Positions 2,962 to 63,514 of a stretch of DNA of 64,000 bases are shown piece after piece. Position 1 is the stretch's first letter. Each line of letters opens with the position of its first letter. Location of the stretch: the NCBI GenBank assembly GCA_963457665.1, contig OY735211.1, positions 41,326,382-41,390,381 on the forward strand. The letters run 5' to 3'. The notes below the pieces were generated by a model. That model saw nothing but the letters and a program-made list of their open reading frames with translations. It ran no database searches and was not told the DNA's origin. Position numbers and translations under genes: made by a program. The stretch comes from Thysanoteuthis rhombus. Its lineage: Eukaryota; Mollusca; Cephalopoda; Oegopsida; Thysanoteuthidae.

Positions 2962-2963
<2 letters not shown>

Positions 2964-3120
2964 TTGTGTCATCTGCAGACAACTGTTTCGATGTATTACA
3001 TCTCTTCAGTATGGACTGGGTGGTCAGTAAGGCTGAATTTAAGCAATATATTCATTCTTACGCAGAAACTCCGCATCCACCAGAGTGCTCTATTCCTATG
3101 GAAGAGCATTGCATTATATA
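2962..3120 (-). mobile_element. Hammerhead-bearing SINE-like repeat (family E), deleted copy
   Basis: Reverse-oriented copy of the repeat found at 50482-51152 and 63150-63400. It keeps the ribozyme end (2973-3014) and the body segment containing the AAGCAATATATTCATT-like and GAAGAGCATTGCAT-like blocks, but the tRNA-like middle is deleted between about 3016 and 3021. Its outer ends meet (TA)n on both sides. Confidence 0.8.
2973..3014 (-). ncRNA. Hammerhead ribozyme motif
   Basis: On the minus strand: core CTGAAGA, stem II GATGT-AAT-ACATC (five perfect pairs), GAAA, then CAGTTGTC with the cleavage triplet GTC. Stem I is weak here (TGCAG against CCATA), so this copy may be inactive. The stem II pairs differ from the GTTGT/ACAAC version but stay complementary. 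Confidence 0.7.
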
Positions 3121-3139
3121 TACAATATATATATGTGTG

Positions 3140-4774
3140 TGTATTAAAAGTTGAAATGAAGAATATTTCTCAAAGGAAAGAGCAAGATAAAGGTGGGGGC
3201 CTGAATTGACAACGTTAACATAGACTTCTTATTCTTTTAGTGTTAATTGTTTACTAAAAATTAACACACGCACGAGAAGAAGAAGTACTTACTGAGCTAT
3301 TGTAAAGAAGGATTCTATTACTTGGGGTATGTTTATTCCCACAAACCGACGTACCAACACTTTTAAAAGACCCTATCCGTTGAACTGACCTCTTTGCTTC
3401 ATCATTGAAATAAGTAAATGAATGAATAAATGTATTTATTCTATTTATTCTCTCTCGAACGGAAAAAGTCATTGGGTGATTCTTTGAAAGCCTGTCACGT
3501 GTAGCTTATACGAAACCGAATACGTGTTTGAAATATTGAAAGATAGCGAACAATACACTTAAATCCGCTTTTCAAGCATTTCAGAATATAATTTGACATT
3601 TTTATAAGTAAAAAAAGTTTGAAACGAAAACACAACTTGGTCTGGAATAATGTTCAAAGTAGATTCGATGTGATCGAAAGTACTTTTGCCAATTTGTTAT
3701 TTGTACTGTGAAAATCATTTTTTTCTGAAGCCGATAAATTGTCAAAAATCTTTGCGTGTCACATTTCCTGGACCTTCATGATCTTTAAGACTCTCATCTC
3801 CTTAGCGAAACCCCTGGAACCATCAAATCCTTCAGTTGGGAACCGATCTTTGCTGAAATGCTTGGTTGGTGATCCGTTCAGTTTCAGGCAGATTTTGTCC
3901 ATGTTTGAACTCTTAAAGAAGAAAAATCGCACGAAAATCCTTCTTGTCCATTTTGTTCAACGCTTTCTAACTTCAATCTGAAAATTAGAAAATGACAACA
4001 ACTCTTGGATGAAAACCTATATAAAATGAAATGTAAACTCCTTCTTGTAGTTATCAGGACTGTTTCTTTGGGGCAAAAAATGTCAATTTGCTTTCTGAAT
4101 AACCTAATGTAATTAGTGCTCTTATCTCGAGTTTACTAAGGATATTGCTAGTTGAACATACAGTTTATATATGCTTATGCACATACACACTCACAAACAC
4201 AAAAACCTGTATTTATTTTTTGCTATAGATATGTTAATGCTCGTAGATATCTGATAAGTCTAACGTAATATGTCGCTGGATAATGATACGATCGAACTCA
4301 ATACATTAGTGTTGGTCTGCGAGATTAATTAACCGGCTATCGTTTTATGAAAAGCACCCTGTATTATTGTAAACTGCATTGTTCGTTTTGAGTATGAATA
4401 CTGGTATAAGAAAAAAAGTACGTCATCAGTTTCTGGACAACCTAATATATTCAGTCTTCAAAAAGTATTCTCTCATATCATGGTTACAATTGCAAAAGCA
4501 AAACAAGCAAACAAAAATCCCAACAAAACATCTGACTATTTTTCACAAGCTATTTTCTATCTACAAGTCAGAGAGGTTAATAGAAAAACCTGTCACTTAA
4601 ACAAACGAACGAGCTCTCAAGGAAAAAGGCAAACTTGTCAAATACAATTTTGAATGAAATCAATTTATCCTTAATAACAACGTCAGTGCCGACGTTTTCT
4701 TCGCTGACGTGTGTGGGCCAAGAATAGAACGACGGAGAACCCATTAAATAACATCGCTGGAAGGCGAGTATTAG
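3140..4774. other. Unassigned DNA
   Basis: No element recognised. A minus-strand frame of roughly 55 codons at about 3745-3960 is open but matches no family I know. AT-rich throughout, with no promoter or terminator that I can argue for. Confidence 0.5.
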
Positions 4775-26278: not shown

Positions 26279-26333
26279 ATTTGCTACACAGGCACGTTCA
26301 TGTTTCTGTCCTGTCTGTGCTTCTTCAGGCAAA
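26279..26333 (-). ncRNA. Decayed hammerhead motif of PLE
   Basis: Stem I arms ATTTGC and GCAAAT are perfect, the core reads CTGAAGA and GAAA is kept, but stem II (GCAC/GGAC) no longer pairs well. The compensated stem I (compare ATTCGC/GCGAAT elsewhere) supports the fold. Confidence 0.55.
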
Positions 26334-26737: not shown

Positions 26738-27160
26738 TCAATCTTTTTGGCTGATGGTAGGTGAGACTTGGTTGATGGTGGTATGTGTGTGCTCATACTG
26801 TTTCTCGAATGGCCTATTGTGTGTTACCCGATTCCTTGTATACAAATGTACTGTTTTTATTTGATTCTGTTTCAAAATCAATCTATTTAAAGGTTTTGCA
26901 ATCTGGAAATGTCCATACCTCTGGGATATCGTATTGCACTGAGATATAAGAGCTGCCTCGATACATCTGCGTATCGAGGTATCATGTATATTTTTGATCA
27001 GATGGGCTTTGTAGAAGTTTAAATTGTGGTTGTGAGTGTTTCTATATTTGACAAGGGCGTTTATCTTTTCATCCAATTTTAAAGCTTTTTTGTGTTCATA
27101 TTTTCTTTTCTTGAGAGGTCTTGACGCCTCTCCTATGTAGATCTTGTCGCAGTCCAGCAA
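26738..27160 (-). pseudogene. PLE GIY-YIG endonuclease domain, 5'-truncated
   Basis: A 140-codon open stretch without internal stops. Its first residues LLDCDKIYIGEASRPLKKR give the YIG half of the GIY-YIG motif followed by the conserved Arg-rich helix (RPLKKRKYEH). The middle has HNHNLNFYKAHLI and the C-terminal part R-x-C-I-E-A-A-L-I, which holds the Glu expected for metal binding. In Penelope-like elements this module lies C-terminal to the reverse transcriptase and nicks the target DNA. Here the GIY strand and all of the RT are missing because of truncation at about 27178. The intact frame suggests a fairly young copy. No methionine start is expected for an internal fragment; the frame opens at TTG. 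Confidence 0.85.
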
Positions 27161-27175
27161 TAATAGTCTATTTAT

Positions 27176-27270
27176 ATGAGAACATTAAGCCTAGGTTACG
27201 TAAAACAATCATCCTTTATTGACTTTCAAAACCCCTGGCCCTCAGTGAGAAGGCCTGATCCGGAAGAAGG
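27176..27270 (+). repeat. Dispersed repeat family G, copy 3
   Basis: TTAAGCCTAGGTTACGTAAA, CAATCATCCTTTATTGACTT and GAAGGCCTGATCC in family order. It truncates the PLE on its left. Confidence 0.65.
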
Positions 27271-30749: not shown

Positions 30750-30858
30750 AGGTCAGTCAGGAGGTTCTGAGGGAACGGGTGGCTTTGACTCGCGTTATAG
30801 ATCGGCTGGCTTCCTCCTTAGTTGGTTTAACGGGATCGTCACTGGAGACTCTTTACAT
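30750..30858 (-). mobile_element. Possible body of a 5S-headed SINE
   Basis: GC-richer segment (GGCTTTGACTCGCGTTATAG, GGCTGGCTTCCTCC) immediately downstream, on the minus strand, of the 5S-like head. Calling it the SINE body is inference from position. Confidence 0.35.
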
Positions 30859-30957
30859 GATCCCTTCCCGGTCTCTCATCTAGGTACTGACCAAGCTCGA
30901 CATTGCTCAGCTTCGGTGATCGTACGGGAACCGGTGTGTCCATCACGATCTGGACGT
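30859..30957 (-). mobile_element. 5S rRNA-derived sequence (SINE3-like head)
   Basis: The minus strand closely follows the pol III internal control region of 5S rRNA: GAAGCTGAGCAATGTCGAGC (box A and intermediate element, canonical GAAGCTAAGCAGGGTCGGGC) and TGGTCAGTACCTAGATGAGA followed by GACC (box C). The first ~25 nt of 5S are poorly preserved and the 3' end diverges after GGGAAGGGAT, so it is not a functional 5S gene. 5S-headed SINEs (SINE3 class) are established in other animals. Confidence 0.7.
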
Positions 30958-30966
30958 TACTCCACC

Positions 30967-50481: not shown

Positions 50482-50483
<2 letters not shown>

Positions 50484-50779
50484 GCTCCTCTATTCAGGGT
50501 TGAGCACTCTTTAAGTGAGATAACTCATCCATTGTAAGCTTATGCAATGCTCTTCCATAGGAATAGAGCACTCTGTTGGGTGAGGAGTTTCTGCGTAAAT
50601 GAATATATTGCTTAAATTCAGCCTTACTGACCACCCAGTTCCGTAGTTCAGAGGTAGGATATCGGCCTCTGGGTTCGATTTAAGGGTTTCAATTCTGCCT
50701 CGCGGTACTGGATGGGTTAAAAGTCTATAGCCACACTGAAGAGATGTAATACATCGAAACAACTGTCTGTGGATGACAC

Positions 50780-50784
<5 letters not shown>
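50482..50784 (+). mobile_element. Hammerhead-bearing SINE-like repeat (family E), copy 2
   Basis: Order on the plus strand: GCTCCTCTATTCAGGGTTGA, GCTTATGCAATGCTCTTCCA, GAATATATTGCTTAAATTCA, CAGTTCCGTAGTTCAGAGGT (pol III A box-like), a GGTTTCAATTCTGCC B-box-like segment, TACTGGATGGG, and the ribozyme at 50731-50772. Ends in TA. The tRNA-like middle suggests internal pol III transcription (inference). Confidence 0.8.
50731..50772 (+). ncRNA. Hammerhead ribozyme motif
   Basis: Stem I CCACA/TGTGG, core CTGAAGA, stem II GATGT-AAT-ACATC, GAAA, minimal stem III (ACAACTGT) and cleavage triplet GTC (after 50767). All universally conserved core positions I can check are present. Confidence 0.85.

Positions 50785-50812
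<28 letters not shown>
50785..50812. repeat. (TA)n microsatellite
   Basis: Short TA array between two family E copies. Confidence 0.95.
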
Positions 50813-50818
<6 letters not shown>

Positions 50819-50819
50819 A

Positions 50820-50861
50820 CCACACTGAAGAGTTGTAATACAACAAAACAGCTGTCTGTGG
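50820..50861 (+). ncRNA. Hammerhead ribozyme motif, G12 lost
   Basis: CCACA/TGTGG, CTGAAGA, GTTGT-AAT-ACAAC, then AAAA in place of GAAA, ACAGCTGT and GTC. The G-to-A change at the invariant G12 should abolish cleavage. Confidence 0.75.
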
Positions 50862-51099
50862 ATGACACAATAATCAAAGATCCCCTATTCAGGGCTGAGT
50901 GAGGTAACTCGTTCATTGTAAGCTTATGCAATGCTCTTCCATGGATGGGGAATATATATGCTAAATAAATATATCACCTATATTCAGCCTTACTGACCAT
51001 TCAGTTCTGTGGCGCAGATGTAGTATACCGGCCTCCTGGTCTGAAGCCAAGGTTTCAACCTTCCTCGTGGTACTGGATGGGATAATTGATAGTCTACAG

Positions 51100-51141
51100 C
51101 CACACTGAAGAGTTGTAATACAACGAAACAGCTTTCTGTGG
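51100..51141 (+). ncRNA. Hammerhead ribozyme motif
   Basis: CCACA/TGTGG, CTGAAGA, GTTGT-AAT-ACAAC, GAAA, then CAGCTTTC, so the triplet is TTC rather than GTC and the stem III C-G pair is lost. Probably weak or inactive. Confidence 0.75.
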
Positions 51142-51150
51142 ATGACATAA

Positions 51151-51172
51151 TGATATATATATATATATGTAT
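51151..51172. repeat. (TA)n microsatellite
   Basis: Short TA array separating family E from a PLE terminus. Confidence 0.95.
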
Positions 51173-51330: not shown

Positions 51331-51385
51331 GGAATCGCTACACAAACAAGTTTATGGTTCTGCCCTCTCTGGGCCTCATCAGGTG
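51331..51385 (-). ncRNA. PLE hammerhead motif, left arm
   Basis: Minus strand: CTGATGA, stem II GCCC-AGAGA-GGGC (perfect), GAAC instead of GAAA, CATAAAC/GTTTGTG stem III, triplet GTA, GCGAT. A15.1 is changed, so activity is doubtful. Confidence 0.65.
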
Positions 51386-51390
51386 AAAAT

Positions 51391-51445
51391 CACCTGATGA
51401 GGCCCAGAGAGGGCAGAACCATAAACATTTTTGTGTAGCGAATCC
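51391..51445 (+). ncRNA. PLE hammerhead motif, right arm
   Basis: Plus-strand mirror of the left arm with the same private GAAC change and stem II GCCC/GGGC. Ends GTGTAGCGAATCC. Confidence 0.65.
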
Positions 51446-63149: not shown

Positions 63150-63400
63150 TTAATAATTGTGTCATCCACAGACTGCTGTTTCGTTGTATCACAACTCTTC
63201 AGTGTGGCTATGGACTATCCAATATCCCCTCCAGTACCACAAGGTAGGGTTAAAACCTTCGCTTTAGACCTAGAGGCTGGCATTTTACCCCTGCTCTACG
63301 CAGAACTGGATGGTCAGTCGAACCAAATTTAAGCAATATATTTATTTACGCACAATTCCCCATCCATCTGGATGATCCATTCAAGAATTGAAAGAGTATT
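63150..63400 (-). mobile_element. Hammerhead-bearing SINE-like repeat (family E), copy 4
   Basis: Minus orientation. From right to left: ATTGCTTAAATT-like block, CCATCCAGTTCTGCGTAGAG (A box-like), GAAGGTTTTAACCC (B box-like), TACTGG, the CCATAGCCACA lead-in and the ribozyme. It retains the tRNA-like middle that copy 1 lacks. Confidence 0.8.
63166..63207 (-). ncRNA. Hammerhead ribozyme motif
   Basis: Minus strand: CCACA/TGTGG stem I, CTGAAGA, stem II GTTGT-GAT-ACAAC, GAAA, CAGCAGTC with triplet GTC. All core positions are intact. Confidence 0.85.
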
Positions 63401-63514
63401 GCTATACATACATATATATATATATGTATATTCATTTGGAGGAACAAATTGATACAAAAAGAATGAAATTATGATGAGATCTGTGATAAGCTAACTCAAA
63501 ACCAAGAAAATATG

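Follow-up and report, generated by a model that had tools for sequence, protein, structure and literature searches.

A hammerhead-type motif at the 3' end of a very abundant SINE-like repeat in the squid Thysanoteuthis rhombus

Five sites in a 64,000-nucleotide stretch of the Thysanoteuthis rhombus genome (contig OY735211.1 of assembly GCA_963457665.1, positions 41,326,382 to 41,390,381 of the forward strand; this whole stretch is hereafter the window) share an arrangement reminiscent of a hammerhead ribozyme, which raises the question of whether these sites belong to a true hammerhead family, what kind of element carries them and what they might do there. A first, sequence-only reading had interpreted them as conserved hammerheads inside a dispersed SINE-like repeat. 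We read the five sites directly and tabulated their features. The CTGAAGA string and a 5-bp stem II with a 3-nt loop, claimed for all five, are present in all five, and GAAA, the GTC triplet and a perfect CCACA/TGTGG stem I are each found in four of the five, as had been claimed. The hammerhead at 50731-50772 (+) combines CTGAAGA, GAAA and GTC with stems I and II of 5 bp each and a stem III of 2 bp, and its predicted cut site lies 3' of C50767. Among the remaining sites, the hammerhead at 2973-3014 (-) has an imperfect stem I (CCATA/TGCAG), the one at 50820-50861 (+) has AAAA in place of GAAA, the one at 51100-51141 (+) has TTC in place of GTC, and the one at 63166-63207 (-) carries a stem II variant, GTTGT/ACAAC. 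A degenerate 45-mer built from the copies themselves, with up to 3 mismatches allowed, recovered four of the five window sites, and a variable-gap hammerhead pattern recovered two; neither pattern matched anything in 100 dinucleotide shuffles. A strict descriptor written for this analysis passes three sites (50731, 51100 and 63166).

All five sites lie in one ~300-bp non-coding repeat whose core has thousands of copies in the genome, which bears out the dispersed SINE-like carrier that had been proposed. The motif had been placed "inside" this repeat; it is indeed within it, at the 3' end and not in the body. The window contains one near-complete copy at 50482..50784 (+), corresponding to model positions 1-300, which served as the query unit for the genome search. 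It is followed by a copy at 50811..50871 (+; model 240-300) that is 5'-truncated to barely more than hammerhead 50820-50861, and by an older unit at 50879..51151 (+; model 3-300), which stands head-to-tail after hammerhead 50820 and ends in hammerhead 51100-51141. Hammerhead 63166-63207 belongs to an older 5'-truncated copy at 63156..63402 (-), delimited by model alignment, and hammerhead 2973-3014 to a rearranged copy at 2963..3116 (-), in which model positions 59-160 are joined to 249-300.

Covariance models had been put forward as a check on this interpretation. At Rfam gathering thresholds no hammerhead was found in the whole 64-kb window; the sole match there is 5S rRNA-like (30845-30961, -; 46.3 bits, E 1.9e-6) and could be a gene, a pseudogene or a 5S-derived SINE. 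No match reached the Hammerhead_1 gathering score of 34, and Hammerhead_1 was matched below it, at 22.3-23.4 bits. When 851 bases round the site were searched by E-value, 31 matches were returned, mostly on AT repeats; one of the 31 was Hammerhead_1 at 51098-51143, with 22.3 bits and an E-value of 0.011 against the cut-off of 34 bits. A copy elsewhere in the genome (L063) gave 22.3 bits with an E-value of 0.0025, and in a joint search of 17 loci at an E cut of 1 only L041 gave Hammerhead_1 (23.4 bits, E 0.16). A Hammerhead_3 match at 50760..50854 (+; 32.2 bits, cut-off 48.5, E 7.5e-5) spans two adjoining copies, taking one strand from the hammerhead at 50731 and the other from that at 50820. 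The weak Rfam lists for the window and its pieces were filled by AT repeats, apart from which only the sub-threshold hammerheads and a tRNA-like hit flanking the copy in locus L038 are relevant. Since all Hammerhead_1 matches are sub-threshold, the covariance models recognize the motif solely below the Rfam gathering score. The original interpretation holds as a hammerhead-type motif kept across the family in a dispersed SINE-like repeat, one that does not attain that score.

In order to describe the family, we searched the source genome of the window (2,731,506,558 bases). The typical 37-nt core occurs exactly in 2,131 copies in this 2.73-Gb genome (1,094 + 1,037), with none for the reversed control. 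The 303-bp unit yielded 5,078 candidates, and 40 of these were scored. All 40 are near full length and they lie on 25 contigs; they comprise the window copy and 39 others at 92-94% identity, the latter examined with their flanks, and 10 further partial matches stand alongside. With 287-303 bp matched and a mean GC of 0.443, these 40 copies fit the short non-coding repeats with a type I hammerhead that make up animal non-LTR retrozymes (about 150-450 bp, under 50% GC). A random sample of 20 stretches of 10 kb, drawn from 25 large contigs, contained 7 matches to the element model, which very roughly corresponds to ~95,000 element copies per genome, on the order of 10^5, with a Poisson range of about 38,000-200,000 from these 7 events. 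The strict descriptor passes one of the 6 family hammerheads in the random sample, and many old copies therefore look decayed. In one element copy (L061 3447-3605, -) the hammerhead is missing and the following ATGACACAAT is kept, an internal deletion. A random 10-kb stretch (L053) also holds, at 3253-3495 and 3820-4035 (+), fragments that we take to resemble LINE reverse transcriptase.

We collected 59 hammerheads of the family. The core (CUGANGA ... GAAA ... UH, with three stems) is near-consensus in most of them, as is GUC. The pairing analysis uses 52, having left out hammerheads near-identical to kept ones (L012 937-1002, L017, L027 and L032) as well as damaged ones (L033 632-697, L040 1004-1069 and L053 5524-5589), which would lower the share of paired cells. 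Standard pairs occupy 94.2% of pair cells in these 52; shuffling gives 93.3%, and sliding lowers the share to 56% or less. In 5 of the 52 one stem II pair is U-A instead of A-U, a compensatory change on both sides, and the covariation score exceeds that of all 500 shuffles, but the single pair that varies on both sides is no more than the shuffles show. Because the relatedness of copies may raise covariation scores, we treat covariation as support and not as proof. The substitution load is low in the core (9 of 520) but also in positions 1-25 (11 of 947), and selection on the core is therefore not proven by it. Stem III has 2 bp, and its strand ACAGCTGT is complementary to itself, like that of ribozymes working in pairs. 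For a single copy of L010 the hammerhead fold has -6.2 kcal/mol versus -15.6 kcal/mol for the minimum-energy fold, and for two copies the values are -28.3 for the hammerhead fold versus -39.6 for the best two-strand fold. The two-copy fold thus beats two single hammerhead folds but not the best alternative, so that we do not use energy as proof.

The most informative trait of the family is where its 3' end lies, immediately beyond the hammerhead. Past the predicted cut, the 40 full copies continue with TGTGGATGACACAATAAT and then an AT-rich tail, mostly (AT)n. The element ends at this fixed point, about 15-20 nt beyond the predicted cut, and gives way to the AT-rich tail in 39 of the 40 (L046 being judged by eye, and L026, the exception, continuing into a second unit). 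For 31 copies a script put the transition to the tail at 15-20 nt from the cut, and it stopped at 9-12 nt in 7 others, owing to substitutions or a small deletion. The 5' ends of these copies are biased, since the search favours full length. In half of them (20) the match reaches 0-7 nt upstream of the body, frequently beside TA repeats; these include L026, with its downstream unit, and L041, which adjoins an older unit. Another 4 extend 15-18 nt upstream of the body and so start 2-5 nt beyond the predicted cut, no copy starts 8-14 nt ahead of the body, 8 are joined head-to-tail to an upstream unit and 8 start at query positions 2-15. In this tally L012 and L034 were placed by eye. Altogether 30 of the 40 are single, and the rest show the tandem units known from animal non-LTR retrozymes; 3 tandem pairs spaced 289-314 bp were found among the first 100 listed exact cores. 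From the same 100 cores we took 17 loci, all on one contig, as a sample of 5' ends free of the full-length bias. A gap of N affects 2 of them, leaving 15 readable, and 10 of these are 5'-truncated at model positions 37-235; the other 5 extend to model position 1 or 2, and two of them are rearranged internally. A fixed 3' end combined with ragged 5' ends is typical of target-primed reverse transcription, in this case primed at the hammerhead end. In 30 copies no clear target-site duplications were seen. The mean longest shared word was 6.4, versus 5.8 for shuffled pairs (maximum 6.4), at most a weak excess, which TA repeats obscure; the shuffled mean is also slightly too low (self-pairs were skipped but kept in the divisor).

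We also examined the region 5' of the hammerhead for features of SINEs. Most copies contain there a box-A-like TAGTCCAGAGG and a weak box-B-like GGTTTCAATTC, 41 nt apart. Within the near-complete window copy, a motif match places the Pol III box-A-like TAGTTCAGAGG at 50644..50654 (+), and the weak box-B-like string lies at the family position, 50685..50695 (+), where it differs from the consensus at 3 positions; slightly better agreement is shown by a string lying 13 nt further upstream. Box A without mismatches together with box B with at most 3 was found in 24 of 40 copies versus 14 of 2,000 shuffles and none of 40 on the reverse strand, and allowing one box A mismatch raised this to 38 of 40 versus 204 of 2,000, both counts being made against consensus strings, with a weak box B. 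As the copies are related, this co-occurrence represents one event and not 24. Rfam found no tRNA in the element in L014 (E up to 5; this piece began at 725, cutting into the hammerhead, and covers the tRNA-like part only) or in L063 (E up to 10). In the 17 loci of the joint hammerhead search, at E up to 1, the sole Rfam tRNA match lies outside the element, in the flank of the copy in L038 (1070-1146, -; 26.2 bits, below the cut-off of 29), and ARAGORN reported 0 tRNA in the window. We therefore call the element SINE-like and not tRNA-derived. The octopus SINEs OR1 and OR2 are reported to derive from tRNA-Arg.

Taken as a whole, the family is probably a ~300-bp non-coding, non-autonomous retroposon whose 3' end carries a type I-like hammerhead, that is, an animal non-LTR retrozyme of SINE build. 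Its anatomy, together with that of published relatives, suggests that its RNA may be cleaved and form circles. Transcription, perhaps by Pol III, would start from the box A/B region just 5' of the hammerhead, as the motifs there suggest. Two hammerheads in tandem or paired transcripts could then have the self-complementary strand ACAGCUGU of stem III in common and be cleaved 3' of GUC, releasing units that, by analogy with published relatives and from their anatomy, may be circularised. RNA retaining the last hammerhead would be reverse transcribed from AAUAAU, which lies ~15-18 nt beyond the cut; insertion would often be into TA repeats and would mostly yield 5'-truncated copies. Of this, the termini are those observed, and the enzyme is presumed. 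A LINE or a Penelope-like element could supply it, the latter being a literature-based guess. In inserted copies the last hammerhead stays uncut, so cleavage would not be needed at that end.

Another explanation carries an appreciable, if lesser, probability, namely that the hammerhead fold owes its conservation chiefly to recognition or priming by reverse transcriptase at the 3' end, with self-cleavage weak, protein-assisted or incidental and circles minor. It is consistent with the constant 3' end right behind an uncut hammerhead (39 of 40 copies), with the ragged 5' ends and with the weak single-copy hammerhead fold, and an Anolis Penelope-like element is reported, in the available part of PMC11167929, to use mainly unprocessed RNA as template and to insert even when its hammerhead is mutated. 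However, a core and GUC that stay near-consensus in most of 59 hammerheads speak against it, and so do the 4 of 40 copies that start 2-5 nt past the cut and the 8 of 40 that follow a tandem unit, as expected for cut or circular RNA. A bolder proposal, which we consider rather unlikely, would make the hammerhead the 3'-end recognition and priming module of the whole SINE family, a function shared with Penelope-like elements, such that one fold marks the start of reverse transcription and, when two copies pair, cuts concatemers into units. It is very improbable that this is an ordinary SINE family holding a hammerhead-like string with no RNA function: such a string would account for Rfam scores under the gathering cut-off, for a strict descriptor passing only one of six random copies and for a predicted single-copy fold that differs from the hammerhead, but the core letters, the three stems, GUC and the compensatory stem II change all fit a hammerhead and the layout is absent from shuffles, on which grounds we rejected the chance motif. 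Least probable is a satellite spread by unequal exchange, its repeat unit merely marked by the hammerhead, which would explain the tandem units and which we rejected, as the 40 scored copies are dispersed over 25 contigs, most of them solitary and sharing a 3' end followed by an AT-rich tail, and 10 of 15 other loci are 5'-truncated.

A second hammerhead-like motif was also observed. With up to 6 substitutions allowed, it occurs in the window at 26328 (-), 25481 (-), 51382 (-) and 51394 (+), and elsewhere in the genome at L053 5127 (-) and 4736 (-) and L051 5513 (+). Its best copies have a 6-bp stem I (ATTCGC/GCGAAT type) round CTGATGA-GGCCCAGAGAGGGCA-GAAAC and a stem III of 7-8 bp; position 10.1/11.1 would be G-A, and the two copies near 51.4 kb have GAAC. 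These two form a head-to-head pair joined at a short palindrome (window 51340-51420), just 3' of the SINE with hammerhead 51100. The best Rfam score for this motif was 13.3 bits (L053), with nothing at the 26.3 kb site. Upstream of the 26328 motif lies an ORF at 26741-27184 (-), in which we take one stretch to look like GIY-YIG, perhaps the end of a Penelope-like element. Pfam found no GIY-YIG in this ORF and a protein search no homologue, so that the helper element stays a guess.

We conclude that the repeat is a real, very abundant new family of an already known kind, of which Sm-alpha and animal non-LTR retrozymes are published members. The sequence-only reading knew of no description of the family, and we likewise found none in the open-licence literature. 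A very large natural hammerhead family is added in this way, one that annotation at the Rfam gathering threshold missed in the window, and its 3' terminus just past an uncut hammerhead, together with ragged 5' ends, offers a testable picture of how elements of this sort may be copied. It would also place retrozymes in cephalopods, where, in the literature found, hammerheads have so far only been counted (PMC6962438, available part). That count concerns the giant squid genome, where 235 hammerhead 1 loci at the Rfam gathering threshold are filed under cis-regulatory elements. It is likewise a cephalopod assembly, the available part of the article describes no element, and the present family falls below that threshold in the window.

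The closest likeness is with the animal non-LTR retrozymes of Cervera and de la Pena 2020 (PMC7229834), which, in the portion of the article available, are likewise ~300-bp non-coding repeats with a GC content below 45% (44.3% here) and share a type I hammerhead, a 2-bp helix III with a tetraloop, tandem units and a very high copy number, reaching 126,247 motifs in the axolotl. The dimeric hammerheads of newt and axolotl described there similarly have a short helix III with a self-complementary loop, and a two-copy ribozyme is possible in the squid, as a prediction from sequence. Unlike the retrozymes in that portion of the article, the squid family evidently has a 3' end that is fixed just beyond the hammerhead and followed by an AT-rich tail; its copies are mainly single and often 5'-truncated, and they contain a box A/B-like region. 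The main text of PMC7229834, as available, mentions neither octopus nor any cephalopod, and its authors have already proposed Penelope-like elements as retrozyme helpers; according to the accessible part of a review (PMC7761336), retrozyme repeats show no motif that reveals which element mobilises them. Sm-alpha of schistosomes, likened here by its description in the available part of PMC8490949, is likewise a SINE-like retroposon with a type I hammerhead, in a different host group, and an extremely short stem III is reported in the same source for the hammerheads of the schistosome W element. Penelope-like elements with hammerheads (PMC11167929, in the part available) share with the squid family AT-rich insertion sites, an internal start of reverse transcription that leaves a tail past the hammerhead, and tandem or partial-tandem copies; in the Anolis element, reverse transcription begins within the RNA, past the hammerhead, at AT-rich targets. 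These elements encode a reverse transcriptase and a GIY-YIG nuclease, whereas the ~300-bp squid repeat is too short to do so.
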